From NCBI GenBank assembly GCA_017303395.1, contig JAFLBN010000008.1, forward strand, positions 62,001 to 126,000: DNA of 64,000 nt. The letters are read 5' to 3'. Shown one piece after another: positions 28,044-61,699 of this stretch (the stretch's first letter is position 1; the number at the start of each line of letters is the position of its first letter). The notes beneath the pieces were generated by a model, which saw only the letters and a program-made list of their open reading frames with translations, did not search any database and was not told the origin of the DNA. The translations under genes and the position numbers were made by a program. Source of the DNA: Chitinophagales bacterium (GTDB lineage Bacteria; Bacteroidota; Bacteroidia; Chitinophagales; Chitinophagaceae).

Positions 28044-28904
28044 TTGAAAGATACAAATCATAACGAAGACTGGAGCTTAGTCATTAAGCCCAAGACAGGG
28101 CTTTTTGAAATAAACTTCAAAGAGATTTGGCAGTACAGAGATTTGGTTATGTTGCTGGTAAAGAGAGATTTTGTGTCTTTCTACAAGCAAACCATCCTTG
28201 GGCCAATATGGTTTCTTGTTCAGCCATTGCTGACAACTATGATGTTCTTGCTTGTGTTTGGCAGAATAGCCCAATTGCCAACGGATGGCGTGCCTGCTAT
28301 TCTATTTTATCTGGCAGGTGTTACATGTTGGGGCTATTTTTCTGAAGCCCTTACTAAAACCTCAGAAACATTTACTGCAAATGCAAATATATTTGGTAAG
28401 GTATACTTCCCAAGGTTGATAATACCGCTTTCAATAGTAGTGTCTGCAATGATGCGATTGGGAGTACAATTGATTCTATTTTTTGCAGTACTTGGTTACT
28501 ATGTTTTTTTCAGCGATAGCAATACTCACCTTACTTGGGCTGCTGCATTGTTTCCTGTTTTAATAATAATGATGGGATTATTAGGCCTTGGTTTAGGATT
28601 GATATTCTCTGCATTGACTACAAAGTATAGAGACCTTCGCTTCTTACTGACGTTTGGCGTGCAATTATTGATGTACGCTACGCCGATTGTTTATCCTTTA
28701 TCGCTTGCTCCTGAAAAATACAGGTGGTTGATAGTTGCTAATCCGTTTACAGCAATTATCGAAACATTCAGGTTTGGGTTTCTGGGTGCCGGCGCATTTA
28801 ATTCAGCATATTTTACATACAGCGTAGTTGCAACAATAATAATCTTATTTACAGGTGTTCTGATATTTAATAAGGTTGAGAAAAACTTTATGGATACCGT
28901 ATAA
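28044..28904 (+). CDS. wzm: ABC transporter permease for polysaccharide export (Wzm-like)
   Basis: A 286-residue ABC-2-type permease with six membrane segments and the family-typical cytoplasmic N-terminus (IWQYRDLVMLLVKRDFVSFYKQT, about residues 29-51) and conserved segment ALTTKYRDLRFL near 190-201. It forms the membrane pore of an ATP-driven exporter of undecaprenyl-linked glycans. The start is a TTG at 28044, because the family N-terminus extends upstream of the first ATG. The Wzt ATPase gene follows ten bases later. Confidence 0.9.
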   Translation: MKDTNHNEDWSLVIKPKTGLFEINFKEIWQYRDLVMLLVKRDFVSFYKQTILGPIWFLVQPLLTTMMFLLVFGRIAQLPTDGVPAILFYLAGVTCWGYFSEALTKTSETFTANANIFGKVYFPRLIIPLSIVVSAMMRLGVQLILFFAVLGYYVFFSDSNTHLTWAAALFPVLIIMMGLLGLGLGLIFSALTTKYRDLRFLLTFGVQLLMYATPIVYPLSLAPEKYRWLIVANPFTAIIETFRFGFLGAGAFNSAYFTYSVVATIIILFTGVLIFNKVEKNFMDTV

Positions 28905-28914
28905 AAATACCCAC

Positions 28915-30186
28915 ATGTCGAATACTGTAATAGAGCTCAATAATATTTCAAAACTATATCGCCTTGGTGAGGTAGGTACTGGTACACTCTCACACGATCT
29001 TAATCGTTTGTGGCACCGCTTGCGCGGACAGGAAGATCCGTATGCTAAAGTTGGCGAAGAGAATAATAGAGAGAGCAAAGGTGGCGAATATGTATGGGCT
29101 ATACAGGATATTAGTTTCAAAGTGAATCAAGGTGACGTACTTGGTGTTATTGGTAAAAATGGCGCAGGAAAATCAACCTTGTTAAAAATATTGTCTCGTG
29201 TTACGGCACCAACAAAAGGTAGTATAAAAGCGAAAGGACGAATAGCAAGCTTGTTGGAAGTTGGTACAGGTTTTCACCCGGAGTTGACGGGCAGAGAAAA
29301 TATCTTTTTGAATGGGGCCATCCTTGGCATGACAAAAACAGAAATCAGGCGAAAGTTTGATGAGATAGTTTCTTTCTCAGGTGTAGAGCGTTATATAGAC
29401 ACACCTGTTAAGAGGTATAGTTCGGGTATGTATGTACGTCTGGCATTTGCAGTAGCCGCGCATCTGGAATCTGAAATATTGATAGTGGATGAAGTGCTTG
29501 CAGTAGGTGATGCTGAGTTTCAGAAAAAGTGCTTGGGTAGAATGAAAGATGTAAGTGCGAAGGAAGGCAGAACAGTATTGTTTGTGAGTCATAACATGGC
29601 AGCAGTAAGGCAATTGTGTACCAGTGCTGTAGTAATGAAAAATGGCAGATTGGTATTTGAAGGTACGCAGACAGATGGCGTAAACTTCTATCAGATGTCT
29701 CACAATACAAATTCTGAGTATATACACGAAGGAGATATTGAAAATGCACCGGGCAATAAACATATTCGCATCAAGCGATTTGATGTAAAACCTGTAAACG
29801 GAGAAGTGATTTCTATTTCTTCAGGGTTTGATTTTGAGTTAGAGTTTCTGAATAATAAAGAAGATATAAGTCTCGACGTAACATTCGAACTGAAAAATAG
29901 TGACGAGATAATTGTATTTCATAACGGTACCATATTAAGCCCGAATAAAGATTCAAAGAGAGGTTACTACAAAGTATCGTCAAGAATACCTGCGCATACA
30001 CTTAATGCAGGTGTTTATAAATTTACCTTGATATTTGGTGAAAGTCAACGTTATGAGGTTTGTGCATTAGAAGACTTCGTCCAATTTGAGATAATGAATG
30101 AAGCTAGCGGTAGTAATAGTAGTGTATTGCCTGGTATGTTGCATTTGAATATGCCATTTAGTACAACCTTCAACAAGGTGAATTAA
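28915..30186 (+). CDS. wzt: ABC transporter ATP-binding protein with C-terminal glycan-binding domain (Wzt-like)
   Basis: A 423-residue ATPase partner of Wzm. Walker A is GKNGAGKST (residues 80-88), the signature is YSSGMYVRLAFA and Walker B is ILIVDEVLAVGD. A 40-residue insertion (residues 20-57) before the core is typical of Wzt. Residues about 255-423 are an additional beta-rich domain, as in O-antigen Wzt proteins, where it recognises the finished or end-capped polymer. The ATG at 28915 is chosen over an upstream frame extension into wzm. Its presence implies that the exported chain, or a repeat unit, carries a recognisable terminal modification. Confidence 0.92.
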   Translation: MSNTVIELNNISKLYRLGEVGTGTLSHDLNRLWHRLRGQEDPYAKVGEENNRESKGGEYVWAIQDISFKVNQGDVLGVIGKNGAGKSTLLKILSRVTAPTKGSIKAKGRIASLLEVGTGFHPELTGRENIFLNGAILGMTKTEIRRKFDEIVSFSGVERYIDTPVKRYSSGMYVRLAFAVAAHLESEILIVDEVLAVGDAEFQKKCLGRMKDVSAKEGRTVLFVSHNMAAVRQLCTSAVVMKNGRLVFEGTQTDGVNFYQMSHNTNSEYIHEGDIENAPGNKHIRIKRFDVKPVNGEVISISSGFDFELEFLNNKEDISLDVTFELKNSDEIIVFHNGTILSPNKDSKRGYYKVSSRIPAHTLNAGVYKFTLIFGESQRYEVCALEDFVQFEIMNEASGSNSSVLPGMLHLNMPFSTTFNKVN

Positions 30187-30189
30187 ACC

Positions 30190-30609
30190 ATGACTTTAGA
30201 GACAGTAAAGCTTATTGATTTGCCCATAATCCCGGATGACAGGGGCAATCTTTCATTCTTCCAGAATGATGAGCATATACCATTCAAAATTCAACGCGCA
30301 TATTGGATATATGATGTGCCGGGTGGAGAACACAGAGGAGGGCATGCTTATACAGATTTGCAGGAAGTAATCATTGCATTGTCAGGTAGTTTTGATGTGG
30401 TAATAGATGATGGATTTGAAAAGAAAGTCGTAACACTCAATCGTTCTTACAACGCATTGTATGTGCCTAAAATGATTTGGCGAAGGCTTGAGAATTTTTC
30501 AACAAACAGCCTTGCGTTTATTGTTACAGATAAGCTGTATGATGCAGGACAATATATTAGGGACTATGAGCAGTACCTTAAAATGAAAAAAGATGGGAAA
30601 CAGGAATAG
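30190..30609 (+). CDS. dTDP-4-oxo-6-deoxyglucose 3,4-ketoisomerase (FdtA/QdtA family), copy 1
   Basis: A 139-residue cupin of the WxcM-like/FdtA family. Such enzymes convert dTDP-4-keto-6-deoxyglucose to the 3-keto isomer before a transaminase makes a 3-amino-3,6-dideoxyhexose (Fuc3N or Qui3N). The cupin core shows DDRGNLSFFQ, RAYWIYDVPGGEHRGGHAY with the family's His residues, and SGSFDVVIDDG. The protein is four bases after wzt and its end overlaps the next, homologous gene by 17 bases. Whether it yields the galacto or gluco isomer cannot be told from sequence. Confidence 0.88.
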   Translation: MTLETVKLIDLPIIPDDRGNLSFFQNDEHIPFKIQRAYWIYDVPGGEHRGGHAYTDLQEVIIALSGSFDVVIDDGFEKKVVTLNRSYNALYVPKMIWRRLENFSTNSLAFIVTDKLYDAGQYIRDYEQYLKMKKDGKQE

Positions 30610-31015
30610 TGTTTTTGACTGTCATATTGTTCATTTCCCTGTTATACATAACAGAGCTGGTAACATAACGCCTGTTCAAAATAATATTGAAATACCATTC
30701 GATATAAAACGTGTGTATTATCTGTATGATGTACCGGGTGGTGCTGATAGAGGAGGCCATGCACATAGAGACTTAAAGCAGTTGATTATTGCAGCAAGTG
30801 GTAGTTTTGATATAACACTTGATGATGGGACGACAAAAAAGACATTTTCGCTGAACAGACCAAATATGGGTTTGTACTTGTGCCCCGGTATTTGGAGGGA
30901 TATCTCCAATTTCTCATCAGGAGCTATATGCTTGGTGCTTGCTTCAGAGCCTTATGATGAAAGCGATTACATCAGACATTATGATGAATACAAAATATAC
31001 TGTAATGAACTTTGA
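30593..31015 (+). CDS. dTDP-4-oxo-6-deoxyglucose 3,4-ketoisomerase (FdtA/QdtA family), copy 2
   Basis: A 140-residue paralogue of the preceding gene: RVYYLYDVPGGADRGGHAHRDLKQ aligns with the corresponding stretch of copy 1 (YDVPGG, then RGGHA), and SGSFDITLDDG with SGSFDVVIDDG. Copy 2 keeps the HAH pair (GGHAHRDL) seen in characterised FdtA/QdtA, while copy 1 has HAY at that point. The ATG at 30593 lies inside the 3' end of copy 1. The two could form a heteromer or give two isomers. The following hydratase gene overlaps its 3' end. Confidence 0.88.
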   Translation: MGNRNSVFDCHIVHFPVIHNRAGNITPVQNNIEIPFDIKRVYYLYDVPGGADRGGHAHRDLKQLIIAASGSFDITLDDGTTKKTFSLNRPNMGLYLCPGIWRDISNFSSGAICLVLASEPYDESDYIRHYDEYKIYCNEL

Positions 31016-31415
31016 CATAGGGCATATCGTTACATTCTCTAAGACTATTTCTGAGTTTGATATTTACCAATTTGCAGGTATTACGGGAGATTTCAACCCC
31101 CTTCACGTGAATGAAGAATATGCAAAAAGTACAAGGTTTGGCAAGCGAATTGCTCATGGTATGCTTACATCGTCATTTATATGTACAGCATTGGGGACTC
31201 AAATGCCGGGAGTAGGAACTATCCATTTAAATCAAAACCTGAGTTTTAAAAAGCCTGTTTATATAGGCGATACAATAACTGTAAAATTAGAGTTGCTGGA
31301 AAAGAATGCTGATAAAAACATTTGGGTAATAAAATCAGATGTTTACAATCAACATGACGAAATAGTTGTTGAAGGGACTTCAACAGTAAAACCTCCAATA
31401 ATCCATGAAGTTTAA
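31005..31415 (+). CDS. MaoC-family (R)-specific enoyl-CoA hydratase, PhaJ-like
   Basis: A 136-residue single hot-dog domain. The hydratase 2 motif is intact: GDFNPLH with D29 and H34, the same Asp-x4-His spacing as the D31/H36 pair of Aeromonas PhaJ, followed by FGKRIAHGMLTSS and GTIHLNQNLSFKKPVYIGD. PhaJ enzymes hydrate crotonyl-CoA-type substrates to (R)-3-hydroxyacyl-CoA. The ATG at 31005 gives a PhaJ-sized protein; in-frame ATGs at 30981 and 30984 are possible. It sits between sugar ketoisomerases and a hexapeptide acyltransferase, overlapping both, so its product may be an acyl donor for sugar N-acylation. That role is inferred. Confidence 0.85.
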   Translation: MNFDIGHIVTFSKTISEFDIYQFAGITGDFNPLHVNEEYAKSTRFGKRIAHGMLTSSFICTALGTQMPGVGTIHLNQNLSFKKPVYIGDTITVKLELLEKNADKNIWVIKSDVYNQHDEIVVEGTSTVKPPIIHEV

Positions 31416-32193
31416 TAACAGGAACGTACACATTAGTGCCACAGCAACCATTGGCAAAAATGTTAGAATAGGAGATAATACCACCATATATGATAATGTG
31501 GTGATAGGCGACAATGTTACTATATGTAATGATTGTGTTTTAGGTGAACCGACAAGTGCGTATTATCAGAACGAAGAAAGCTACGTGAATAAACCGACGT
31601 ATATCGGTACAGGGGCTTTTATCAGGAGTCATTGTATAATATATGCAGGTACATCATTAGGAGAAGGTTGTATTACCGGACATAGAGTAACAATCAGAGA
31701 AAATACAATTGCAGGTAAGCACTGTCTTATCAGTACTCTTGTAGATATTCAGGGTAATTGTAAAATAGGTGACTATAGCCGCATATATAGTAATGTTCAC
31801 ATAGGTGAGCAAACGGTTATTGGAAATTATGTTTTCATATACCCTTATACAATCTTTACAAACGATCCGCAGCCACCATCTACTACTTTGTCAGGTGCAC
31901 ATGTCGATGACTATTCGATAATAACGATACACTGTAAAGTATTGCCTGGTGTGAGAGTCGGTAAGCATTGCCTTGTAGGCGCGAACTCTGTGATAAGCAG
32001 AGATATTGAAGAATACTCTTTTGCTATGGGTGCACCGGCTAAGAGAATCCGAGATATACGAGAGATACCATCAAAAATGGATAATACTGAATCGTATTAT
32101 CCATGGCCTTATCATTTTGAACGTGGCATGCCTTGGCAGGGAATAGGTTATGATAAATGGGTGGAGGATAGAGGGGTTGCTGACAATGGATAG
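31405..32193 (+). CDS. Left-handed beta-helix acyltransferase (hexapeptide family)
   Basis: A 262-residue hexapeptide-repeat transferase. Nearly the whole protein from residue 8 to 205 is built of [LIV]-G-x4 turns (for example ATIGKNVRIGDNTTIYDNVVIGDN, read as successive hexads), with a long loop containing QPPSTTLSGAHVDDYS and a C-terminal helical tail of about 45 residues rich in Trp/Tyr. Such enzymes transfer an acetyl or longer acyl group from CoA or ACP to an amino sugar. The repeats and the flanking PhaJ-like gene, which it overlaps by 11 bases, suggest transfer of a hydroxyacyl group to a 3-amino sugar. The acetyl alternative cannot be excluded. Confidence 0.85.
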   Translation: MKFNNRNVHISATATIGKNVRIGDNTTIYDNVVIGDNVTICNDCVLGEPTSAYYQNEESYVNKPTYIGTGAFIRSHCIIYAGTSLGEGCITGHRVTIRENTIAGKHCLISTLVDIQGNCKIGDYSRIYSNVHIGEQTVIGNYVFIYPYTIFTNDPQPPSTTLSGAHVDDYSIITIHCKVLPGVRVGKHCLVGANSVISRDIEEYSFAMGAPAKRIRDIREIPSKMDNTESYYPWPYHFERGMPWQGIGYDKWVEDRGVADNG

Positions 32194-33163
32194 TCCGTTA
32201 GTAACAGTTGGGGTTGTCAGCTTTAATACCGGCAGATATGTAGTAAGGACACTTGAGTCTATTATGGCTCAAACCTACGCTAATATAGAAGTGATTATTG
32301 TTGATGACGGGTCTTCAGATAATTCAGTTGACCTAATTGAAAATTGGCTCAATAAACACAATAAGCAGCATTGGCAATTCATAAAGCATCCGCAAAATAA
32401 AGGTTTGCATTATGGGCTTAACAAGATATTAGATGCGGCAACAGGAAAGTATATCAGTTTTATAGGGGATGATGAGTTTGTGCCGGAGAAGACAGCTAAG
32501 CAAGTAGAGATGCTTGAAAGAGCCGGATCGGAATATGGAGTGGCTTATGGCAACATGAGTTACATCGACGAGGAAAGCAATCCAAAGGGCGACAGTAATT
32601 GGTTTGATGATAAGTTCTACAAGAACTATCCAATACCTCAGGAAAATATTCTGCACGATATAGTATACTCAGTGACGTTCTTTGTACAAGCATCGTTGTA
32701 TAGTTTGGACTTGTTACGTAAGCTGAAGTTCAGATTTGATGCAAGATTTATTACTGAAGACTGGTATCTCAATCTTTTTGTAGCCAGATATAGCAAAGCG
32801 ATAGGTGTTTATGATATAATGTGTCGCTATAGATATCGCAATGATTCAATAACTGCTACTAACTGGACTGATGAGAAAATGCACAAAGTATTGCTCTCTC
32901 AGTTGGATATGTTAAATCATGTTTATAACTATCCTGAGAACACCAGTGCAGACAAGTTGGTGATATATAAAAAGATGCATGCACTCGCGTTGCAGTTATA
33001 TGCATCAACAAAGCTAAATAGAATAAAGAAATCAGTAGTAGCATTTGGACTTTTTAAAAAGCAACCAAGTGTCAAGAATATAATGAAGAGTATTGTGCTG
33101 TTGTTGATGGGGAATTTGGATGTAACAAGAGGTGTTGAGCAATCTAGGATGATTGAAAGGTAA
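32186..33163 (+). CDS. Glycosyltransferase family 2
   Basis: A 325-residue GT-A enzyme. The nucleotide-binding start PLVTVGVVSFNTGRYVVRTL, then IEVIIVDDGSSDNSVDLI, is the GT2 hallmark; the DxD-like metal site is FIGDDEF near residue 98, and ITEDWYLNLF supplies the downstream acidic ED. The ATG at 32186 is preferred because it begins just before the conserved strand and overlaps the end of the acyltransferase gene by eight bases. Sugar specificity is unknown. Confidence 0.86.
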   Translation: MDSPLVTVGVVSFNTGRYVVRTLESIMAQTYANIEVIIVDDGSSDNSVDLIENWLNKHNKQHWQFIKHPQNKGLHYGLNKILDAATGKYISFIGDDEFVPEKTAKQVEMLERAGSEYGVAYGNMSYIDEESNPKGDSNWFDDKFYKNYPIPQENILHDIVYSVTFFVQASLYSLDLLRKLKFRFDARFITEDWYLNLFVARYSKAIGVYDIMCRYRYRNDSITATNWTDEKMHKVLLSQLDMLNHVYNYPENTSADKLVIYKKMHALALQLYASTKLNRIKKSVVAFGLFKKQPSVKNIMKSIVLLLMGNLDVTRGVEQSRMIER

Positions 33164-33164
33164 T

Positions 33165-34268
33165 ATGAAAGTTCTTATTGTTGATTTCGACCACTATGAA
33201 ATGCTGTACTCACTCTATATGTCGGCTTGCAGGTATGCAAGTCATATTTATATATGTTCAGTACAGGAGTATATAGAAAGGTTGAAAGAACTAGAACTAC
33301 CTTTTAATATAAAAGTTGATTGGATAGTTGCCGACTCTCCTAAGGATTTATTGGCAAAGGCTGATAAATTCTCAGGTATTGAGGTTCAATATAGTTTTCT
33401 AAATACGATTTATTCAGATTTTAATGATGCCATAACTTGGCTTAGTATGTTTAGTTATGGGCATATCGTACTAACTATACACAATGCCAACTTCTGGCTG
33501 ATGAAGGGTACAAGATATAAACTCTTTAAGCGCCCCCGCAATGAGCAGCATAAAGCAATGCTTAGATTAGTAGAATTGTCAGCGTCAGTTCTGGTACTTA
33601 GTGAAAATGTGAAGAAGTATATAGAATCGAAGTATAAGCCTAAGAAGAACATTGTTGTTTTTCCATATTCAGTATATGAGGGTTTTAGAGGAAATACGAC
33701 AGGGGATTGCATCACAATAGCTGTGCCGGGTGTAATAGAACGAACCAGAAGAGACTATGAGTTGATATTGAATGTTTTTCAGGAACTGGATTCTAAGAAA
33801 TTCAAACTAAAGCTTTTGGGACCTCCTATAGGGGACTATGGTAATGAAATCGTTGCTAAATGCTTAGAACTGAAAAAGAAAGGCTATTTGATAGATTTAC
33901 TTGACGATCCTAAACATTTTGAGCACGAAATATCAGACACTACAGTAATACTTGCTCCTATCAACATACAGACATCTTTTGCAGGAATAGAAGAAACATA
34001 CGGTGTTTCAAAAGAATCAGGAGTAATATTTGATGTGGTAAGATATGCAATGCCTGCTATTCTGCCGAAAAGCTTACATGTGCCTGCTGATATCTCAAAC
34101 GCAATATTGAGGTATAATACTGCGGATGAATTGAAAGCACAAATAGTTTCTTTAACGGAACATTCGACGCTTGAGAAACTAAAAGAAAAAACCGTTACTG
34201 TCTCACAAAATTATAGTATTGACGCTGTGAGTAAAAAGTTATTCGAAGACCTAGGTTATTTATCATGA
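33165..34268 (+). CDS. Glycosyltransferase-like protein (GT-B, divergent)
   Basis: A 367-residue protein. It lacks a clean GT4 E-x7-E motif, but the layout is that of a GT-B enzyme: an N-terminal Rossmann strand (KVLIVDFDHYEML), a middle ITIAVPGVIERTRRDYEL nucleotide-domain start, KFKLKLLGPP, and a C-terminal ILAPINIQTSFAGIEETYG followed by FDVVRYAMPAILP. The reading frame opens with ATG at 33165; a TTG at 33153 would extend it by four residues. Base composition here is visibly more AT-rich than in the flanking housekeeping genes. It overlaps the start of the amidotransferase gene by four bases. Confidence 0.65.
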   Translation: MKVLIVDFDHYEMLYSLYMSACRYASHIYICSVQEYIERLKELELPFNIKVDWIVADSPKDLLAKADKFSGIEVQYSFLNTIYSDFNDAITWLSMFSYGHIVLTIHNANFWLMKGTRYKLFKRPRNEQHKAMLRLVELSASVLVLSENVKKYIESKYKPKKNIVVFPYSVYEGFRGNTTGDCITIAVPGVIERTRRDYELILNVFQELDSKKFKLKLLGPPIGDYGNEIVAKCLELKKKGYLIDLLDDPKHFEHEISDTTVILAPINIQTSFAGIEETYGVSKESGVIFDVVRYAMPAILPKSLHVPADISNAILRYNTADELKAQIVSLTEHSTLEKLKEKTVTVSQNYSIDAVSKKLFEDLGYLS

Positions 34269-35398
34269 TTACCTGTAAAAATTGCATATTAGATAGTAAC
34301 GACGACCCGAATTTGGTGTTGGATGAGAATGGTGTTTGTAATCATTGTCACTGGTATTACTCTGAAGCGGCCTGTTATCTGAAGCAAGGGCAAGAAGGTG
34401 AACAATTGTTACAGGAAACGGTCAATGCTATAAAAGAGTACGGAAAGGATAAGCAATATGATTGCCTGATAGGATTAAGTGGCGGTGTTGATAGCAGTTA
34501 TGTAGCATACAAGGCGAAGCAGCTAGGTTTAAGAGCACTATGTGTGCATTTTGATAATGGTTGGAATAGTGAACAGGCTGTGATGAATATTCATCACATA
34601 GTTAATAAGTTAGGTTTTGATCTTAGTACATATGTAATCAACTGGGAGGAATTTAAAGATTTGCAGTTGGCATATCTCAAGGCTTCAGTGATAGATATTG
34701 AAGTGCTTACAGATCATGCTATTTACGGCACCATGTTCAAAATAGCTAAAGACAATGATATAAAGTACGTGCTCGGTGGGCATAATGTAGTGACAGAAGG
34801 TGTGTTGCCTTACCATTGGACGTACAATAAGAAAGACTACATCAATATAAAAGCCATACACAAAAAGTATGGTGAGAAAGCTTTGCAGACATATCCGTTC
34901 CTTGATAAAAAAATGAAAAAGTTTATCAAAGAGTCCGGGGTTGAGTTTGTAAATTATCTCAATTGGATGCCTTACGTAAAGGATGATGTAAAAGAGGTGT
35001 TGAAAAAAGAGTTAGACTGGCAAGACTACGGTGGCAAGCATTACGAGAGCATCTGGACAAGATTTTATCAAGGCTATATACTGCCGGTAAAGTTTGGTGT
35101 AGATAAACGTAAAGCACATTATGCAACCTTGATTTGTTCGGGACAAATGACAAGAGAGCAAGCTTTGGAAGAGATGAAAAAACCTGCTTACGATGAAGCA
35201 TTATTTCAGGTTGATAAAGAGTTTGTCTTAAAGAAGCTGGGACTTAGCGAACAAGAGTTTGATAAAATAATGCAACTACCTGTTCGCAATCACAGAGAGT
35301 TTGATACCGAAGGTTCTTTCTTCCATTATTACCCCATATTAAAGCCACTAAGGCCGCTGTGGCATACATTTAAAAAGCTTTCGGGAAAACAGGTATAG
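34265..35398 (+). CDS. N-acetyl sugar amidotransferase (WbpG/PseA type), copy 1
   Basis: A 377-residue ATP-PP-loop amidotransferase. In Pseudomonas O-antigen and Campylobacter flagellar sugars this family, with HisH- and HisF-like partners, replaces the N-acetyl group by an acetamidino group. Visible are two CxxC pairs (C4/C7 and C25/C28, probable zinc site), the PP-loop SGGVDSS (residues 72-78), HFDNGWNSEQAV, and a C-terminal RKAHYATLICSGQMTREQAL. A second copy lies at 41388. No HisH-type glutaminase is visible; a HisF-like gene is at 39508. Confidence 0.9.
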   Translation: MITCKNCILDSNDDPNLVLDENGVCNHCHWYYSEAACYLKQGQEGEQLLQETVNAIKEYGKDKQYDCLIGLSGGVDSSYVAYKAKQLGLRALCVHFDNGWNSEQAVMNIHHIVNKLGFDLSTYVINWEEFKDLQLAYLKASVIDIEVLTDHAIYGTMFKIAKDNDIKYVLGGHNVVTEGVLPYHWTYNKKDYINIKAIHKKYGEKALQTYPFLDKKMKKFIKESGVEFVNYLNWMPYVKDDVKEVLKKELDWQDYGGKHYESIWTRFYQGYILPVKFGVDKRKAHYATLICSGQMTREQALEEMKKPAYDEALFQVDKEFVLKKLGLSEQEFDKIMQLPVRNHREFDTEGSFFHYYPILKPLRPLWHTFKKLSGKQV

Positions 35399-39507: not shown

Positions 39508-40257
39508 ATGGCTAGAACCAGAATAATACCTGTCCTTTTGCTGAACAAGGGTGGATTATATAAAACAATCAAGTTCAAGAATCCTGCTTATATCGGTGAT
39601 CCGATAAATGCAGTTAAAATATTTAATGAGAAAGAAGCTGATGAGTTGATTCTTCTGGACTATACAGCATCAGTTGAAAAACGGGAACCCGATTTTGTGA
39701 AGATTCGTGAGATAGCGGGCGAAGCGTTTATGCCAATGGCATATGGTGGTGGTATCAGAAATTACGACACGGCTAAGAAAGTGTTTGATGCTGGGTATGA
39801 AAAAGTGATATTGAATTCAATACTTTTTGAAGACCTGAAGCTGGTTGACAAGATTGCATCAGTATATGGTAGTCAGGCAGTGGTAGGGTGTATAGATTTT
39901 AAGAAGCCATTGCTAAGTAAGAATAAAGCATTTGCATACTCAGGCACCAAATCATCTGGTAGTAGTCCTGTGGAATGGGCAAAGCAATTACAACAGGCTG
40001 GTGTTGGGGAGATAATGGTAAATAGCATTGAATTAGACGGTACATGGGGTGGGTATGCATTTGATGTGATTAAAGAAGTGTCTGCAAATGTCAATGTGCC
40101 ATTGATAGCTTGCGGTGGTGCAGGTAGTCTTGATGATTTTCAGAAGGCTGTAGATAATGGTGCATCAGCAGTTGCAGCAGGTAGCATGTTTGTATTTCAG
40201 AAAAAAGGCATGGGAGTGCTAATTAATTTTCCTACAGGAAAAGTAATTACTAAGTAG
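39508..40257 (+). CDS. HisF-like cyclase-subunit homologue of the LPS-associated type
   Basis: A 249-residue (beta/alpha)8-barrel homologous to HisF. The first strand reads RIIPVLLLNKGGLYKT: at position 11, where histidine-pathway HisF has its catalytic general acid Asp11, there is a Leu. The second catalytic residue, Asp130 (GCIDFKK), is retained, and the phosphate-binding GGGIRN and GGAGSL loops are present. This is the HisF2 pattern of O-antigen loci, where the protein channels ammonia to a WbpG-type amidotransferase rather than doing histidine synthesis. It sits between the two WbpG-like genes, but no HisH glutaminase gene is in the window. Confidence 0.88.
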   Translation: MARTRIIPVLLLNKGGLYKTIKFKNPAYIGDPINAVKIFNEKEADELILLDYTASVEKREPDFVKIREIAGEAFMPMAYGGGIRNYDTAKKVFDAGYEKVILNSILFEDLKLVDKIASVYGSQAVVGCIDFKKPLLSKNKAFAYSGTKSSGSSPVEWAKQLQQAGVGEIMVNSIELDGTWGGYAFDVIKEVSANVNVPLIACGGAGSLDDFQKAVDNGASAVAAGSMFVFQKKGMGVLINFPTGKVITK

Positions 40258-40359: not shown

Positions 40360-41388
40360 ATGGCTGACATTAAAATCAAATTCGCGTTGGTAGGCTGTGG
40401 CCGCATAGCACAGCGACATGCAGAACATATCAATAAGCAAGGTGTACTTGTTGCAGTATGCGATGTGGTAAAAGAAAAAGCTGATGCGCTGGCAGAACAG
40501 TACGAAGCGAAGGCATATTACGATATAGATACTCTTTTAGCTAACGAAAAGGATATTGATGTAGTGTCGATATGCTCGCCGAATGGTTTGCATGCACAAC
40601 ATTCCATCAAAGCACTGAAGGCTGGTTTCCACGCACTGTGCGAAAAACCTATGGCCATAAATGTGCATGATTGTGGCGAAATGATAAAGGCTGCTGAACA
40701 ATCTAATAAACGTTTATTCGCTATAAAGCAAAACAGGTTCAATCCACCAGTGGCTGCTGTTAAGCAAGCAATAGATGAAGGTCGTTTTGGGAAAATATAT
40801 AGTGTGCAACTAAGCTGTTTCTGGAACAGGAACGACGACTACTATGCTAACTCCTGGAAAGGAACAAAAGATTTGGATGGTGGTACGCTGTACACACAGT
40901 TCTCTCACTTTGTAGACCTGCTGTATTGGATGATTGGCGACATCAAGAACGTGCAGGCATACATCGGCAACTACGCACACAAAGACACTATTGAGTTTGA
41001 AGATACAGGCGCAATTATTGCAGAATTCTACAACGGTGCAATAGGTACTATCAACTATACTGTAAATAGTTATCAGAAAAATATGGAAGGTTCGCTGACC
41101 ATATTTGCAGAGAATGGTACTGTGAAAATTGGAGGTCAATATCTGAATGAGCTGGAATACCAGAACATAAAAGACTATAAAATAGAGAACCTACCTGAAG
41201 GTAATAAGCCTAATAACTATGGCTCTTATCAAGGTTCTATGTCGAACCATGATAAAGTTTATGAAAACCTGATAAACGTACTTACACATAATGCTGCTAT
41301 TTCTACAAGTGCATTTGAGGGTTTGAAAACAGTAGAGATAATCGATAAGATTTACACAGCAGCTGTAAATGTTAAAAACAACGGATAA
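40360..41388 (+). CDS. Gfo/Idh/MocA oxidoreductase, WlbA/WbpB-like sugar 3-dehydrogenase
   Basis: A 342-residue NAD-dependent sugar dehydrogenase. The Rossmann N-terminus is KFALVGCGRIAQRHAEHI, the signature EKPMA has K96 at the active site, and QFSHFVDLLYWMIGDI holds the probable catalytic histidine. The sequence most resembles WbpB/WlbA, which oxidises UDP-GlcNAcA at C3 before transamination in the UDP-diNAcA pathway. The ATG at 40360 is preferred to a TTG at 40351. The preceding 102-base gap has no other feature. Its 3' end overlaps the next WbpG-like gene by one base. Confidence 0.85.
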   Translation: MADIKIKFALVGCGRIAQRHAEHINKQGVLVAVCDVVKEKADALAEQYEAKAYYDIDTLLANEKDIDVVSICSPNGLHAQHSIKALKAGFHALCEKPMAINVHDCGEMIKAAEQSNKRLFAIKQNRFNPPVAAVKQAIDEGRFGKIYSVQLSCFWNRNDDYYANSWKGTKDLDGGTLYTQFSHFVDLLYWMIGDIKNVQAYIGNYAHKDTIEFEDTGAIIAEFYNGAIGTINYTVNSYQKNMEGSLTIFAENGTVKIGGQYLNELEYQNIKDYKIENLPEGNKPNNYGSYQGSMSNHDKVYENLINVLTHNAAISTSAFEGLKTVEIIDKIYTAAVNVKNNG

Positions 41389-42524
41389 TGCGGGGATATA
41401 ACGTTACACCTTACAGGCAGTGCTCACAATGTATCATGGATACAAACGATGATCCTTTCTTAAAATTTGATGACAAAGGCATTTGTAACCATTGTGTAAC
41501 ATATGTTCAGGAAGAAAAGGAGTTTGTGAAAAGCGGTCAGGAAGGTGAACGTGAACTACAATCTATAATTGATAAGATAAAAGCAGACGGCAAGGGCAAG
41601 AAGTACGATTGTGTACTAGGTATTAGTGGTGGTGTAGACAGTAGTTATCTAGCTTATGTAGCTAAGGAGTGGGGTATTCGTCCGTTGGGTGTACACTGCG
41701 ACAATGGTTGGAACTCTGAACTGGCAGTTCAGAATATTCAGTCTATAGTTCGCACGCTCGATATGGACCTTGATACATACGTTATCAACTGGGATGAATT
41801 CAGAGACATACAATTGGCATATCTCAAAGCAAATGTTATCGATATTGAGGCTATTACAGATCTGGCATTCCGTGCTGTTTTAAAGAAGACAGCTCATAAA
41901 TATAAAGTGAAGTACTTTTTGTCTGGAGATAATGTTGTTACAGAATCTGTACTGCCGCGCGCCTGGATATGTAAGGATACCTCCAATCTGTTGAGCATCC
42001 ATGAAAAATTCGGTAGTGTTCCGTTAAAGACCTATCCGTTGATGACTCCGTTAAAGGAATTATACTACGATAAAACAAATCCAACCGAAAGTCTTGCGTT
42101 GCTCAATCTCATGGACTATAAAAAAGACCATGTGAAAGAAGTAATCAAAACAAAGCTTGGTTGGAGAGATTATGGAGGTAAACACTTCGAATCTGTATTT
42201 ACCCGCTTTTATCAGGCGTATATATTGCCGAATAAGTTTGGTGTAGATAAGCGCAAAGCACATTTGTCAAACCTGATATGTTCTGGTCAGATAACGAAGG
42301 CGGAGGCATTGGAGGAATTGAAAGAAGAGTATTATCCGGATGAGATGATGCGCATTGATAAAGAATTTGTGTTGAAGAAACTTGGCTTTAGTGAGCAGGC
42401 ATTTGACGAGTATATGAAAGCCGAGCCTGTGCCGCATGAACATTACGGCATTGGTAAGACAATATATGACAAGTATAAGATTCTGAAACTTATTCGCCCT
42501 ATCGTAAACCTCATTAAAAACTAA
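41388..42524 (+). CDS. N-acetyl sugar amidotransferase (WbpG/PseA type), copy 2
   Basis: A 378-residue paralogue of the protein at 34265, with the same architecture: CxxC pairs C12/C15 and C33/C36, PP-loop SGGVDSS (80-86), HCDNGWNSELAV, VINWDEFRDIQLAYLKANVI, and RKAHLSNLICSGQITKAEAL. The two share long identical stretches but differ throughout, so they are old paralogues rather than a recent duplication. It follows the WlbA-like gene and precedes an N-formyltransferase, so it probably acts on the diamino-sugar product of this sub-cluster. The ammonia source is not evident. Confidence 0.9.
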   Translation: MRGYNVTPYRQCSQCIMDTNDDPFLKFDDKGICNHCVTYVQEEKEFVKSGQEGERELQSIIDKIKADGKGKKYDCVLGISGGVDSSYLAYVAKEWGIRPLGVHCDNGWNSELAVQNIQSIVRTLDMDLDTYVINWDEFRDIQLAYLKANVIDIEAITDLAFRAVLKKTAHKYKVKYFLSGDNVVTESVLPRAWICKDTSNLLSIHEKFGSVPLKTYPLMTPLKELYYDKTNPTESLALLNLMDYKKDHVKEVIKTKLGWRDYGGKHFESVFTRFYQAYILPNKFGVDKRKAHLSNLICSGQITKAEALEELKEEYYPDEMMRIDKEFVLKKLGFSEQAFDEYMKAEPVPHEHYGIGKTIYDKYKILKLIRPIVNLIKN

Positions 42525-43778: not shown

Positions 43779-44885
43779 ATGAATATTCCTTTCGTAGACT
43801 TAAAACAGCAATACCTGAGCATTAAAAATGATATAGATACTGGTATTCAGAATGTAATCAATAATACATCCTTCGTAGGCGGAAAGTACGTGAAGGAGTT
43901 TGAAGAGGCATTTGCAAAAGCTTACGGTGTTAAGCATATGATATCTGTAGCCAATGGTACAGATTCTTTGTACATCATTATGAAGATGCTTGGTGTTGGT
44001 GAGGGTGATGAAGTTATAACCGTTGCAAATAGCTGGATATCAAGCTCTGAAACAATAACACAAGCTGGTGCAAAACCAGTTTTTGTAGATATTCATCCTG
44101 ACTACTATAGTATAGATGAAACTAAATTGGAAGCAGCCATAACACCTGCTACAAAAGCACTGATATTGGTACACCTGCAGGGGCAGATGGCGGATGTAGA
44201 GACAATAGCACGCATCTGTAAGGAAAAAAATATCTACCTGATTGAAGACTGTGCACAGTCTCATTTCTCTGAATATAAAGGCGTATATGCTGGTGTTACT
44301 GGTATAGCAGGTAGCTTTAGCTTCTACCCTGGTAAGAATCTTGGTGCGTACGGTGATGCGGGTGGTATCATTACCAACGATGATGAGCTGGCAACCAAAA
44401 TCAGGATGTTTGCAAACCATGGTGCGCTTACAAAACACCAGCATCAGATAGAGGGTATCAATAGCCGTCTGGATAGCATGCAGGCAGCAATATTATCTGC
44501 AAAGCTGCCACATATACATAAGTGGACAGAACAGCGCATCAATAACGCAGCACTATATCATAAGTATCTGGCTGATGTTAACGATATAGTACTACCTGCC
44601 ACAAGGCCCGATTCTAAACATACTTTCCATTTGTACATGATCCGTACCAAGGTTCGTGAAAAACTGATGCAATACCTGAAAGAGAATGGTATTGAGACAG
44701 CGATACACTATCCTACAGCATTGCCCAACCTAAAGGCGTATGCATACCTTGGTCTGAAACCGGAACAATTCCCGATTGCTACGCAGTATCAGGATGAAAT
44801 ATTGTCTTTGCCAATGTATCCTGAATTGAAAGAAGAAGAGATTGCGTATGTAGCACAGAAAATAAAAGACTTTTTCAAGGCATAA
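43779..44885 (+). CDS. DegT/DnrJ/EryC1 aminotransferase (nucleotide-sugar, WbpE/FdtB-like)
   Basis: A 368-residue PLP-dependent sugar aminotransferase. The Schiff-base lysine is K186 in SFYPGKNLGAYGDAG. Other family motifs are SVANGTDSLYIIMKML (phosphate-binding Thr/Asp), IEDCAQSHFSEYKG, and NSRLDSMQAAIL. It would put an amino group on a 3-keto sugar. Two substrates are possible in this locus: the WlbA-type 3-keto-uronic acid made by the neighbouring oxidoreductase, or the 3-keto-6-deoxyhexose made by the FdtA-type isomerases 13 kb upstream. It overlaps the next gene by one base. Confidence 0.9.
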   Translation: MNIPFVDLKQQYLSIKNDIDTGIQNVINNTSFVGGKYVKEFEEAFAKAYGVKHMISVANGTDSLYIIMKMLGVGEGDEVITVANSWISSSETITQAGAKPVFVDIHPDYYSIDETKLEAAITPATKALILVHLQGQMADVETIARICKEKNIYLIEDCAQSHFSEYKGVYAGVTGIAGSFSFYPGKNLGAYGDAGGIITNDDELATKIRMFANHGALTKHQHQIEGINSRLDSMQAAILSAKLPHIHKWTEQRINNAALYHKYLADVNDIVLPATRPDSKHTFHLYMIRTKVREKLMQYLKENGIETAIHYPTALPNLKAYAYLGLKPEQFPIATQYQDEILSLPMYPELKEEEIAYVAQKIKDFFKA

Positions 44886-58210: not shown

Positions 58211-59350
58211 GTGAAGATTGTATTTGTAAACCAGACAGCCAACTACCTGTTTGCAGACATTATCACGGCGTTTGCAAGCAAGATGCCCAATGTGCAGATA
58301 GAAGCATGGTATGGTAGTTTCGATTATGATGTAACGAAACTGCCTGCTAATGTTACAGCACACGTAGGGCCTGTGTACGATAGAACAAGTTTCTCTCGCA
58401 GGTTTCGAACATGGACGAAGTTTTACTTCTGGATGCGTAACAAGGCAAAGCAGGAAGATATCGCGAATACAAAATTCTTCTTTGTTTCTAATCCGCCACT
58501 GTTTGTGTTCTTGCCACGATTGCAGAAAATGCAGTTCGCTACATTGATATACGATTTGTATCCCGATGTGTTGACTGGTTTTAGGAAGAATGCTTTGTTG
58601 AATAACATTGCAAACTATTGGGCAAAGAAGAACAGGCAAGTGTTGCCATCTGCACAAAAGATATTTACACTTGGAACAGGTTTGAAAATAGCTATAGAAA
58701 AATACTTGCCTGCATCAGCGGTGGATAAAGTACAAGTAGTACCTATCTGGAATAAACAGGTGGAAACAGTAAATGCGTCAACAAGAGATTTCAGAAAAGA
58801 ATGGGGGCTGGGAGATAAAAAAGTAATTCTCTATTCCGGCAATATAGGTCTAACGCACCCGCTGGAATACTTAGTAGAGATAGCAAAGAAACTACAATTA
58901 CATCCTGATTGGGTTGTTGTAGTAGTGGGCAATGATAGTAAGAAAGTAAAGCTGAAAGACTTGGCAGCTGGACTTGATAATATTCAGTTTCATGCACCTG
59001 TGCCATTTGCAGACCTGTCGCAGTTGTTGTCTATTGCTACTTGGGGTTATGTAACACTCGATACGAGTGCTACCAACAATTCGGTACCAAGTAAAACATA
59101 TAATCTGTTGGCAGCAGGTAGTCCGCTGTTGGCAATGGTAAATAGCTCATCAGAAATAGCATCGTTGATAGATACTTACAACGTCGGCATCTCCTTCAAA
59201 GAAGATGAGATAGATGCAGCATTGCGAAAACTGTTGAGTATAGATGCTGCGCAGCACAATCAATTAAAACAAAATGCAGTGGAATGTTCAATGCATTTCA
59301 CCAAAGCATTGGCAGATAATTTTGTAGAAAGCCTCGGCTGGCATGTATAA
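58211..59350 (+). CDS. Glycosyltransferase, WbuB-like GT4
   Basis: A 379-residue GT-B enzyme, GTG start at 58211 directly after the carbamoyltransferase stop. YDLYPDVLTGF, then KIFTLGTGLKIAIEKYL, and VQVVPIWNKQVET are typical of WbuB/L-fucosamine-type transferases. The donor domain starts KVILYSGNIGLTHPLEYLVE and contains YVTLDTSATNNSVPSKTYNL. Such enzymes often add the second sugar to the lipid-linked starter, which fits its position directly upstream of the initiating sugar transferase, overlapping it by eight bases. Confidence 0.85.
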   Translation: MKIVFVNQTANYLFADIITAFASKMPNVQIEAWYGSFDYDVTKLPANVTAHVGPVYDRTSFSRRFRTWTKFYFWMRNKAKQEDIANTKFFFVSNPPLFVFLPRLQKMQFATLIYDLYPDVLTGFRKNALLNNIANYWAKKNRQVLPSAQKIFTLGTGLKIAIEKYLPASAVDKVQVVPIWNKQVETVNASTRDFRKEWGLGDKKVILYSGNIGLTHPLEYLVEIAKKLQLHPDWVVVVVGNDSKKVKLKDLAAGLDNIQFHAPVPFADLSQLLSIATWGYVTLDTSATNNSVPSKTYNLLAAGSPLLAMVNSSSEIASLIDTYNVGISFKEDEIDAALRKLLSIDAAQHNQLKQNAVECSMHFTKALADNFVESLGWHV

Positions 59351-59963
59351 GCAGTTTTTCAAACCATTGTTAGATAAGCTCATCGCGCTGATAGGATTCG
59401 TTGTCCTGTCTCCGTTGTTTCTGCTTGCAATGATATTGCTCTTTATGGCCAATCACGGCAAACCGTTTTTCTTTCAGCCTCGCCCCGGTAAGAGGGGTAG
59501 AATATTCCGCATCATCAAGTTCAAAACAATGAACGATGCAAAGGATGAAAACGGACAATTGCTCGCTGATGAAAAACGTCTTACTGTAGTCGGTAAGATT
59601 GTTCGCAAAACATCTATCGATGAAATCCCGCAACTGCTCAATGTGCTGATAGGAGACATGAGCCTGATAGGCCCGCGTCCGCTATTAGCAGAGTACCTGC
59701 CGCTGTACAACGAACGCCAGCGACGCAGACATGAAGTGAAGCCCGGAATTACGGGATGGGCACAGGTTAATGGTCGTAATTCTATATCTTGGGAAGAGAA
59801 ATTTGAACTAGATGTGTATTATGTCGATCATATTTCTTTCCTGCTCGATGTAAGGATATTGTTGATGACAGTAGTGAATGTATTTCGTGGCAAAGGTATC
59901 AGTCAGGAAGGTGCGGCGACAATGGAAAAATTTAAAGGAACACCAAAGCAACAGGCATCATGA
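59343..59963 (+). CDS. Initiating monotopic phosphoglycosyltransferase (PglC-like sugar transferase)
   Basis: A 206-residue PGT that attaches the first sugar phosphate to undecaprenyl phosphate. It has the N-terminal re-entrant membrane helix (about residues 8-36), FFQPRPGKRGRIFRIIKFKT, the catalytic Asp-Glu dyad D93-E94 in KTSIDEIPQLLNVLIGDMSL, then GPRPLL and PGITGWAQVNGRNSISWEEK. This is the short PglC-type, lacking the PglB- or WbaP-like N-terminal extension. With pglD- and pglE-like genes directly downstream, the starter is probably a bacillosamine-type sugar. Confidence 0.92.
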   Translation: MYKQFFKPLLDKLIALIGFVVLSPLFLLAMILLFMANHGKPFFFQPRPGKRGRIFRIIKFKTMNDAKDENGQLLADEKRLTVVGKIVRKTSIDEIPQLLNVLIGDMSLIGPRPLLAEYLPLYNERQRRRHEVKPGITGWAQVNGRNSISWEEKFELDVYYVDHISFLLDVRILLMTVVNVFRGKGISQEGAATMEKFKGTPKQQAS

Positions 59964-60565
59964 TATTATTCGGCGCTAGTGGTCATGGTAAGGTTATAGC
60001 AGATATACTGGAACTGAACGGTATAGATGATATAACCATTTGGGATGATAATGCTACTGCACCTGTATGGGATTACGAAACATATAAGCCCGATGCAGCG
60101 TCATTGGCAGATGAGCCGATTATTATTTCTATAGGCAGTAATGAAGCCCGCAAAAAAGTGGTGGAGCGCCTGCCTTCTGATGCCAACTATATCGTTGCCA
60201 TTCACCCGCAGGCAGTACTGGCAAGAACGGTAAGTATAGATAACGGTACAGTCATCATGGGTGGTGTGGTTATAAATCCCGATACTACAATCGGCAAGCA
60301 CTGCATCATCAACACCAATGCATCAGTAGATCATGATTGTAAGATTGGTGACTATGTACACATATCCCCAAACGTTGCACTGTGTGGTAATATATCAATA
60401 GGTGAAGGCACGCATATTGGTGCCGGCACTGTAGTAATACCCGGAAAGAAGATAGGCAAGTGGTGTGTCATAGGTGCGGGTAGTGTAATAATAGAAGACG
60501 TTCCTGATTATGCTACAGTTGTAGGTAATCCCGGACGCGTCATAAAAACTTCAAAGAAAGATTAG
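59960..60565 (+). CDS. pglD: Sugar O/N-acetyltransferase, PglD-like
   Basis: A 201-residue acetyltransferase that N-acetylates the C4 amino group of UDP-4-amino-sugar to UDP-diNAc-bacillosamine. The N-terminal Rossmann-like segment MILFGASGHGKVIADILELN is followed by the left-handed helix, with the catalytic His region TNASVDHDCKIGDYVHISPN and LCGNISIGEGTHIGAGTVVI. It overlaps the PglC-like gene by four bases and is six bases from pglE. Confidence 0.9.
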   Translation: MILFGASGHGKVIADILELNGIDDITIWDDNATAPVWDYETYKPDAASLADEPIIISIGSNEARKKVVERLPSDANYIVAIHPQAVLARTVSIDNGTVIMGGVVINPDTTIGKHCIINTNASVDHDCKIGDYVHISPNVALCGNISIGEGTHIGAGTVVIPGKKIGKWCVIGAGSVIIEDVPDYATVVGNPGRVIKTSKKD

Positions 60566-60571
60566 CGATAC

Positions 60572-61699
60572 ATGAATTCAAAAATCTGGCTTTCATCTCC
60601 GCACATGGGTGGCACAGAGCTTAGCTACATCCACGTGGCTTTTGATACCAACTGGGTAGCACCACTGGGTCCCAATGTCGATAATTTTGAGAAAGACATT
60701 ACGGCATTCCTGAAGGAAGATGTGCATGTTGCAGCGCTTAGTTCAGGTACGGCTGCATTGCATCTTGCATTGGTATTGGCAGGCGTACAGGCAGGCGATG
60801 AAGTTATTTGTCAGAGCATGACATTCTCTGCATCTGCAAATCCAATCGCATACCTTGGTGCAACTCCTGTTTTTGTAGATAGCGAGGCAGAGACAATGAA
60901 CATGTCTCCCGCATTGCTTGAGCAGGCCATTCAGGACAGAATAGCAATAGGAAAAACACCAAAGGCAATCATACCGGTACACTTGTATGGTATGCCTGCT
61001 AAGATAAATGAGATACAAGCCATAGCAGATAAGTATGGCATTGCAGTAATAGAAGACGCTGCCGAGGCTTTAGGTTCTTATGTAGATGGTAAGATGTGCG
61101 GTACTTACGGTGTTATCAGTGCATTATCTTTCAATGGTAACAAAATCATTACAACATCCGGCGGTGGTGCGCTGGTTGCACATAGCAAAGAGCTTGCACA
61201 GAAGGCTACCTTCCTTGCCACACAGGCGCGCGATGCTGCTCCGCATTACGAGCACTCACACATTGGCTACAACTACCGCATGAGCAATATCTGTGCAGGC
61301 ATAGGTCGTGGACAAATGGAAGTATTGGCACAACGTGTTGAACAACGCAGAGCGATATACAACAAGTACTACGACAAAATGAAAAACCTGAAGGGTGTAT
61401 CTTTTGTAGATGAACCTGCAGGCTATTTCAGCAACAGGTGGCTAACTACTATTTTGATAGACCCTGCAAGTGGTATAACAAGAGAAACACTCCGCCTGGC
61501 TTTAGAACAGGATAATATAGAATCTCGCCCGTTGTGGAAGCCTATGCATATGCAGCCGATATTTGCAGAGGCTCCTTTCTATGGCGATGGTACATCGGAG
61601 AGATTATTCCGCGATGGGCTTTGTCTGCCTTCAGGTTCTAATCTTACAGATGCAGACTTCGAGCGCATATTCAAAGTGATAGATGCCGTATTTGCTTAG
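60572..61699 (+). CDS. pglE: DegT-family aminotransferase, PglE-like
   Basis: A 375-residue PLP enzyme that aminates the C4 keto group of the 4-keto sugar in bacillosamine-type synthesis. K191, in SFNGNKIITTSGGGALV, is the PLP lysine. Family motifs are ALSSGTAALHLALVLAG, SMTFSASANPIAYLGATPVF and VIEDAAEALGSYVDG, and the N-terminus KIWLSSPHMGGTE matches PglE-type proteins. The 4,6-dehydratase (PglF/WbpM) that should precede it is not in the window. It is the last gene of the co-directional run and is followed by a strong stem-loop. Confidence 0.92.
   Translation: MNSKIWLSSPHMGGTELSYIHVAFDTNWVAPLGPNVDNFEKDITAFLKEDVHVAALSSGTAALHLALVLAGVQAGDEVICQSMTFSASANPIAYLGATPVFVDSEAETMNMSPALLEQAIQDRIAIGKTPKAIIPVHLYGMPAKINEIQAIADKYGIAVIEDAAEALGSYVDGKMCGTYGVISALSFNGNKIITTSGGGALVAHSKELAQKATFLATQARDAAPHYEHSHIGYNYRMSNICAGIGRGQMEVLAQRVEQRRAIYNKYYDKMKNLKGVSFVDEPAGYFSNRWLTTILIDPASGITRETLRLALEQDNIESRPLWKPMHMQPIFAEAPFYGDGTSERLFRDGLCLPSGSNLTDADFERIFKVIDAVFA

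Follow-up and report, generated by a model that had tools for sequence, protein, structure and literature searches.

What do two sugar 3,4-ketoisomerase genes and an enoyl-CoA hydratase gene of the MaoC/PhaJ type do side by side with a sugar N-acyltransferase gene? The question is raised by a block at positions 30190–32193 of a 64,000-nucleotide stretch of DNA from a Chitinophagales bacterium (assembly GCA_017303395.1, contig JAFLBN010000008.1, positions 62,001 to 126,000), and this whole stretch is called the window here. The initial annotation, made from the letters alone, described four overlapping genes in the order FdtA, FdtA, MaoC/PhaJ and hexapeptide acyltransferase, an arrangement on the plus strand that the open reading frames (ORFs) and Pfam matches bear out. 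It took the two isomerases for like copies, whereas their residues, their separation into two clades and one fusion mark them as diverged, complementary paralogues, and this pair is a more surprising aspect of the locus than the supply of an acyl donor. We lean, if only slightly, towards a joint view with three parts: the upstream copy (FdtA1) and the downstream copy (FdtA2) form an obligate heterodimer with one working composite site and a dead second site; the composite site unites the HxH core of FdtA2 with swapped strands of FdtA1 bearing Arg17 and Trp38 (numbering of the FdtA structure 2pa7); and in the phylum of the window the pair has been combined with interchangeable acyl-donor genes, diversifying the N-acyl groups of surface sugars. 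The donor gene sets meant are MaoC alone, 3-ketoacyl-acyl carrier protein synthase III (KAS III) with a MaoC-reductase, and MaoC with HpcH/HpaI-type genes.

The two ketoisomerase paralogues

Both proteins belong to family PF05523, scoring 164 and 175.2 bits where the cut-off is 23, and they are the sole matches to this family in their own genome at E 0.001. FdtA1 has Arg at 2pa7 chain positions 17 (its own Arg18) and 97, and its HxH motif is replaced by HxY; FdtA2 keeps HxH, and its position 17 is an Ala directly preceded by an Arg. Passages of the review PMC2943079 describe His49 and His51 of FdtA as strictly conserved, where His51 corresponds to 2pa7 chain position 53. FdtA2 has both histidines and FdtA1 has Tyr in place of His51, and on these residues FdtA1 alone should not be classed as a competent FdtA/QdtA ketoisomerase.

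The same division recurs in other genomes. In the first 31 tandem pairs (30 fetched plus that of the window), Arg17 is present in 31 of 31 upstream copies and His at position 53 in none, while His53 is kept in 31 of 31 downstream copies and Arg17 is lost in 30. The rule of complementarity, namely an upstream copy with Arg17 and without the second His and a downstream copy with the second His and without Arg17, was fixed beforehand and held fully in 16 of 18 additional pairs, drawn from the same class but from other genomes, which brings the complementary pairs to 46 of 49. Trp at position 38 is found in 47/49 upstream copies and Ala at position 97 in 19/49 downstream copies, and both paralogues have Arg35 and the first HxH histidine in 49/49. 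Single FdtA copies mostly keep the second His (60/63), so its loss is typical of upstream copies; Arg17, present in 49/63, is less strict among them. The three singles without the second His include a copy from L175, where the pair is split, and the FdtA of L050, which has HxN and lies inside a MaoC-bearing block. Two observations weigh against a strict division of residues: the pairs of L163, L249 and L255 are exceptions to the rule, and an Arg stands one place before position 17 in 22/49 downstream copies, that of the window included, which weakens the part of the rule that concerns Arg.

A quick tree of 162 rows and few columns, for which the careful search is unfinished, groups 48 of 49 upstream copies with one L175 copy (support of 98 in the Shimodaira–Hasegawa-like approximate likelihood ratio test, SH-aLRT) and 48 of 49 downstream copies with the other L175 copy (SH-aLRT 88); L255 appears as a separate tandem. 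Among the sampled rows, every member of each clade shares its locus with a member of the other, although the two in L175 are not adjacent. The two paralogues apparently have a single origin and have been kept together in many genomes of the phylum. In L252, both FdtA domains are fused in a single 315-codon open frame that obeys the rule, and this fusion may be a sequencing error joining two genes.

How such a pair could share a site is suggested by the model of FdtA1 (predicted local distance difference test score 88.1, six sequences), in which Arg18 (position 17) lies just ahead of strand 19–22, Trp39 lies in strand 36–41 and HxY in strand 49–54. As described in passages of PMC2943079, the FdtA dimer forms via a swap of strands 2 and 3. 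If the swapped strands are 19–22 and 36–41, a heterodimer would place Arg18 of FdtA1 at the HxH of FdtA2 while the other site would lack both, a geometry derived from a single-chain model. It may be argued instead that the two proteins form no heterodimer and act one after the other or each on a sugar of its own, as an isomerase and an epimerase-like partner might; the separate, well-diverged clades and the retention of the first His and Arg35 throughout both paralogues suit this alternative, which we nevertheless consider doubtful, since the residues are lost in a complementary way in nearly all pairs, since neither clade was found without the other in the same locus among the rows sampled, since one natural FdtA1–FdtA2 fusion exists, and since FdtA is a strand-swapped dimer in which shared sites are natural.

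Hydratase, acyltransferase and acyl donor

With the start of the hydratase placed at 31005, its catalytic pair is D29 and H34, as the initial annotation had it, and these align to Asp31 and His36 of PhaJ, an enzyme of polyhydroxyalkanoate (PHA) synthesis. The nearest solved structures are the (R)-specific enoyl-CoA hydratases 5cpg and 1iq6. The equivalents of PhaJ Leu65 and Val130 are also kept in the alignment; passages of PMC4823750 state that these residues fix a chain length of C4–C6 and that the PhaJ enzyme assayed there is R-specific. The window protein thus shares with PhaJ its family, the catalytic pair and both chain-length residues, but differs in having Cys at the Ser62 position and in being encoded in a surface-sugar cluster. 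Its closest relative, at 66% identity, is from a Chitinophagaceae metagenome-assembled genome (MAG; L001). On a quick MaoC tree of 87 rows, 14 of them classed as sugar-linked from their neighbours (L001 and L004 on a GNAT-like neighbour judged by eye), the sugar-linked label needs six changes, of which well-supported branches force just one, so that the sugar-linked MaoC genes may have one origin or several.

The acyltransferase aligns with QdtC (3fs8) over residues 11–256 of 262, C-terminal tail included, and keeps the sugar and nucleotide contacts Tyr86, Thr117, Glu141, Asn159 and Asp160. His123 and His134 of QdtC are replaced by Gly and Tyr, respectively, and QdtC mutants at these histidines show only a partial loss of activity. 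The protein can be called QdtC-like by sequence, with a hydroxyacyl-CoA as its presumed donor. The replacement of His123 by Gly was considered as a marker of the donor and rejected, since the acyltransferase of L217, with no MaoC nearby, shares it.

Relatives of the hydratase were collected by a scan with short patterns through 84,980 species, which gave 127 relatives, the best 80 of which were kept; flanks extended to at most 6 kb and several contigs were short, so that co-occurrence counts are a lower bound. Three of these loci have FdtA, QdtC-like and DegT relatives. L002, a MAG filed as Phycisphaerales, reads Gmd, Wzt, FdtA1, FdtA2, MaoC, QdtC and aminotransferase; L050, a Lachnospiraceae MAG, reads FdtA, a glycosyltransferase-like ORF (by eye), MaoC, QdtC-like and aminotransferase; and L052, from Aeromonas dhakensis, reads FdtA, QdtC-like, MaoC and aminotransferase. 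The exact four-gene order with both FdtA genes is found only in L002 among the 80 loci. L002 and the window have six genes in common in the same order and similar G+C (0.376 versus 0.379 for the block), and the L002 stretch may therefore be misbinned or recently transferred. Of 5,426 E. coli genomes, 335 show partial matches to the Aeromonas block, and in three FdtA (shortened in one genome) is found together with the acyltransferase, MaoC and the aminotransferase. The clusters of E. coli X14-3 (L152:7151-15639) and 19SZHZ886Rt (L153:7857-15395) combine ketoisomerase, acyltransferase, MaoC and aminotransferase genes with flippase and glycosyltransferase genes; they lie at different sites, away from galF/gnd in the stretch shown, beside IS5/ISKpn26 and other insertion sequences, and perhaps represent a moving sugar cluster. 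The initial annotation had allowed that homologues of the block might never be found together; they do occur together in several distant bacteria, and although few FdtA loci have the block, it is present in several distant groups.

MaoC also stands next to sugar acyltransferases of other types. In L205 and L219, FdtA1, FdtA2 and MaoC are followed by a different hexapeptide protein, with KAS III as well in L205; in L179 (6235-10733), the FdtA pair is followed by genes for a short-chain reductase, a KAS III and a fused MaoC-reductase, a set resembling a miniature fatty-acid assembly line inside a sugar cluster. The E. coli O49 cluster contains VioA, a NeuD-type acyltransferase and MaoC, and no O49 structure was found in the open-licence literature; the O123/O186 cluster contains GNAT and MaoC; and an apparent GNAT gene (by eye) immediately precedes MaoC in L001 and L004. 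In a prophage of E. coli O39:NM F8704-2 (L155:8306-9401), a NeuD-type acyltransferase and MaoC lie between tail-fibre assembly and sigma factor genes, possibly as a phage-borne modifier of O-antigen N-acyl groups. This variety of neighbours supports a role in donor supply that is independent of the type of acyltransferase. FdtA pairs were also seen in L208 (2156-4773) and L171 (4983-8245) near a NeuD-like gene, genes of the HpcH/HpaI type and a MaoC gene whose product matches mesaconyl-CoA hydratase, as judged by Pfam on two proteins only for L208 and by eye with weak BLAST matches for L171; these sets perhaps lead to a different, branched N-acyl group.

The idea of the initial annotation that the cell makes its own hydroxyacyl-CoA donor for a 3-amino-3,6-dideoxyhexose is still the best reading, and gene sets of this kind recur; the (R) form of the acid is unproven, a close relative of the acyltransferase occurs without MaoC, and the sugar is likelier to be 3-amino-3,6-dideoxyglucose (Qui3N) than its galacto counterpart (Fuc3N). 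We hold it rather probable that a 3-amino sugar is N-acylated from a 3-hydroxyacyl donor which the hydratase supplies; on this reading the group transferred would be a short 3-hydroxyacyl group, probably 3-hydroxybutyryl.

Several findings weigh against this. FdtA, QdtC-like and DegT relatives were found at as few as 3 of the 80 hydratase loci, and QdtC itself is an acetyl-CoA user. The closest acyltransferase seen outside MaoC-bearing blocks, at 57% identity, is that of L217, whose block reads FdtA1–FdtA2–acyltransferase–aminotransferase with no MaoC nearby, which tells against a strict link between hydratase and acyltransferase; a 58% acyltransferase fragment was also seen at the edge of the L184 locus. 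Among the first 60 FdtA loci, taken as the best-scoring places in the phylum with neighbours merged, the own genome excluded and 5 kb flanks where the contig allowed, a MaoC ORF was found in four, being divergent in L171 and about 4 kb distant in L179, and in none of 40 further loci with 4 kb flanks (4/100 overall). In 396 genomes of the order of the window (own genome included), the best non-self hydratase match listed was 1.2e-29 at 40% identity (G083), so the gene is not common in this order; L218 and L219, among the better matches there, have FdtA1–FdtA2–MaoC. Two O-antigens, discussed below, count on the same side.

These points might be taken to mean that the acyltransferase is a plain N-acetyltransferase making Qui3NAc and that MaoC is a mere operon passenger, for example from lipid or storage metabolism. 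Such a reading accords with the acetyl-CoA use of QdtC, the nearest solved relative, with the L217 block, and with the fact that most of the 80 hydratase relatives do not adjoin FdtA, QdtC-like or DegT genes, some apparently lying in PHA clusters (by eye). We nonetheless think it unlikely: distant lineages have the MaoC and acyltransferase genes side by side, with either one first (MaoC in L002 and L050, the acyltransferase in L052 and E. coli), a recurrence unexpected for a passenger gene, and MaoC is also found next to other types of sugar acyltransferase.

Another possibility is that the module is the same but the acid is the (S)-enantiomer or not C4. Fatty-acid synthesis already yields (R)-3-hydroxybutyryl-acyl carrier protein, and a dedicated MaoC would then be needed only for a form other than (R). 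Evidence on the enantiomer amounts to one case each. E. coli O123, an O-antigen of known structure with MaoC in its cluster, does have a 3-hydroxybutanoyl group, given in a table and a reference title of PMC10609480 as N-[(S)-3-hydroxybutanoyl]-D-alanyl on Qui4N; the acid is (S) although the PhaJ tested in PMC4823750 is R-specific. The O103 cluster, for Fuc3N with the (R) group (Fuc3N(R3Hb)), contains ketoisomerase, GNAT and aminotransferase genes and no MaoC, so the hydratase is not generally required for the (R) sugar; the O91 cluster has the O103 gene order and likewise no MaoC. An (S)-3-hydroxybutanoyl group on QuiNAc4N is also reported for an Aeromonas in a passage of PMC8074265. The single O123 and O103 cases suit an (S) or non-C4 acid, but the R-specific PhaJ argues the other way, as do the A. 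baumannii qhbCB/gdr clusters, which make the (S) group with a gene set that, as listed, names no extra hydratase; this variant appears improbable. MaoC is unmentioned in the relevant passages of PMC6124807, PMC8074265 and PMC3967211, and no treatment of acyl-donor supply for 3-hydroxybutanoyl surface sugars was found in the parts of the literature covered. A chance origin of the block is not a serious option because of the E-values and the related gene sets elsewhere.

Sugar supply and proposed pathway

The genome of the window contains RmlB above the family cut-off (G000:C12) with an RmlA-like gene adjoining (L230, RmlA by eye), so a supply of dTDP-4-keto-6-deoxyglucose is probable. Passages of PMC2943079 report that FdtA position 95 is Arg in retaining isomerases and His in inverting ones. 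In the window, Arg occupies this position in both copies (WRR and WRD), and because of this, together with the QdtC-type acyltransferase, the gluco sugar Qui3N is more likely than Fuc3N; QdtB and QdtC accept both C-4 configurations.

The block contains no aminotransferase, which counts against the proposed module. The genome has 15 DegT matches, eight of them strong (>250 bits), and the DegT gene at 43779 is the highest of these eight in its match to the in-block aminotransferase of L002 (43%), which makes it most likely the best candidate in the genome for amination at C-3. Its product is matched better by 7b0d, a glutamine-scyllo-inositol transaminase, than by QdtB 3frk. The Gfo/Idh/MocA protein encoded at 40360 matches 3q2i at 5e-76; we take it to be WlbA, presumably acting in a UDP-3-amino-uronic acid pathway, and the 43779 aminotransferase may belong to that pathway instead.

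On the preferred reading, with hydratase and acyltransferase acting together, RmlB and the RmlA-like protein, encoded elsewhere in the genome, would supply dTDP-4-keto-6-deoxyglucose, which the FdtA1/FdtA2 heterodimer, with swapped strands completing one active site, would convert to the 3-keto sugar with C-4 retained. An aminotransferase from outside the block, most likely that at 43779, would then give dTDP-Qui3N. The MaoC protein, to judge from its family and residues, would hydrate crotonyl-CoA or a similar C4–C6 enoyl-CoA to the 3-hydroxyacyl-CoA, and the QdtC-like protein would move the 3-hydroxyacyl group onto the 3-amino group; glycosyltransferases and a Wzm/Wzt-like exporter would finally put the sugar into a surface glycan.

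Gene context and comparison with known systems

The block sits within a large surface-polysaccharide region of the window, preceded by Wzm/Wzt-like exporter genes, and is a portion of a longer series of closely spaced or overlapping genes (Table 1). From the ORF coordinates, the overlaps are 17 nt between FdtA1 and FdtA2, 11 or 32 nt between FdtA2 and the hydratase depending on the start of the latter (31005 or 30984), and 11 nt between hydratase and acyltransferase; the following glycosyltransferase gene overlaps the acyltransferase gene by 8 nt. A Wzt-like gene lies upstream of the block in L002 too, with a 67% match.

Table 1. Genes of the block, its flanks and the candidate aminotransferase, in window coordinates; all four block proteins far exceed the curated Pfam cut-offs.
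Feature	Position	Strand	Matches and remarks
ABC transporter ATPase (Wzt-like)	28876..30186	+	PF00005 2.3e-21; 3 nt upstream of FdtA1
FdtA1, upstream sugar 3,4-ketoisomerase paralogue	30190..30609	+	PF05523 1.9e-48; PDB 5tpu 6.7e-30; FdtA 2pa7 1.2e-24
FdtA2, downstream paralogue	30593..31015	+	PF05523 6.5e-52
MaoC/PhaJ-like enoyl-CoA hydratase	30984..31415, ATG 30984 or 31005	+	PF01575 5.6e-26; PDB 5cpg 1.5e-28, 1iq6 3e-26
QdtC-type left-handed beta-helix N-acyltransferase	31405..32193	+	hexapeptide family 2.7e-30; PDB QdtC 3fs8 6.7e-57
Glycosyltransferase family 2, downstream flank	32186..33163	+	PF00535 1.4e-27 (frame read from 32189)
DegT aminotransferase, outside block	43779..44885	+	QdtB 3frk 1e-89

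Further along the cluster, neither Pfam nor NCBIfam gives a match at E 0.001 for the 371-aa protein encoded at 33153-34268, whose gene lies between those of the glycosyltransferase and WbuX. The cluster has two genes for N-acetyl sugar amidotransferases of the WbuX type (34265-35398 and 41388-42524) as well as a HisF-like gene (by eye) at 39508-40257, a set that probably leads to acetamidino sugars. At 59343-61699, consecutive genes encode an initiating sugar transferase, a NeuD/PglD-type acetyltransferase and a LegC-like aminotransferase; L220 has relatives of these genes with MaoC inserted between the last two.

Among known systems, the QdtA/QdtB/QdtC set for dTDP-Qui3NAc of Thermoanaerobacterium thermosaccharolyticum resembles the window in the Arg reported to mark retention at C-4, in the QdtB-like aminotransferase of the cluster and in the QdtC-type acyltransferase, but in the window a complementary pair takes the place of the single isomerase gene, a hydratase gene lies within the block and the aminotransferase gene outside it, and the acyltransferase differs from QdtC at His123 and His134. 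The anthrose pathway of Bacillus anthracis is likewise a sugar cluster with a hydratase of acyl-CoA metabolism for the N-acyl group; it differs in that its hydratase is of the crotonase type and its sugar carries the amino group at C-4. Many bacteria have been reported to bear 3-hydroxybutanoyl groups on their surface sugars, and passages of PMC4869667 and PMC3726653 record (R)-3-hydroxybutanoyl derivatives of both Qui3N and Fuc3N. The FdhC/QdhC gene sets of E. coli O103, Acinetobacter serovar 23 and Hafnia alvei, as presented in the same passages, have a presumed product class like that of the window, a 3-(3-hydroxybutanoylamino)-3,6-dideoxyhexose. In O103, FdhC (identified by position) is annotated as GNAT, which is a different fold class, and stands without MaoC, whereas the window acyltransferase is a beta-helix protein with an adjoining hydratase. 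Neither the four-gene block nor a heterodimeric FdtA/QdtA pair was found described among the matches listed in the titles, abstract beginnings and passages covered of the open-licence literature.

If the proposed role of the hydratase is true, a MaoC gene adjoining an amino-sugar acyltransferase gene would be a usable marker of hydroxyacyl groups in genome-based glycan prediction. If the isomerase pair is heterodimeric, it would be a clear case of active-site duties split over two linked genes after duplication, and labelling each gene as a "sugar 3,4-ketoisomerase" would be misleading in many genomes.

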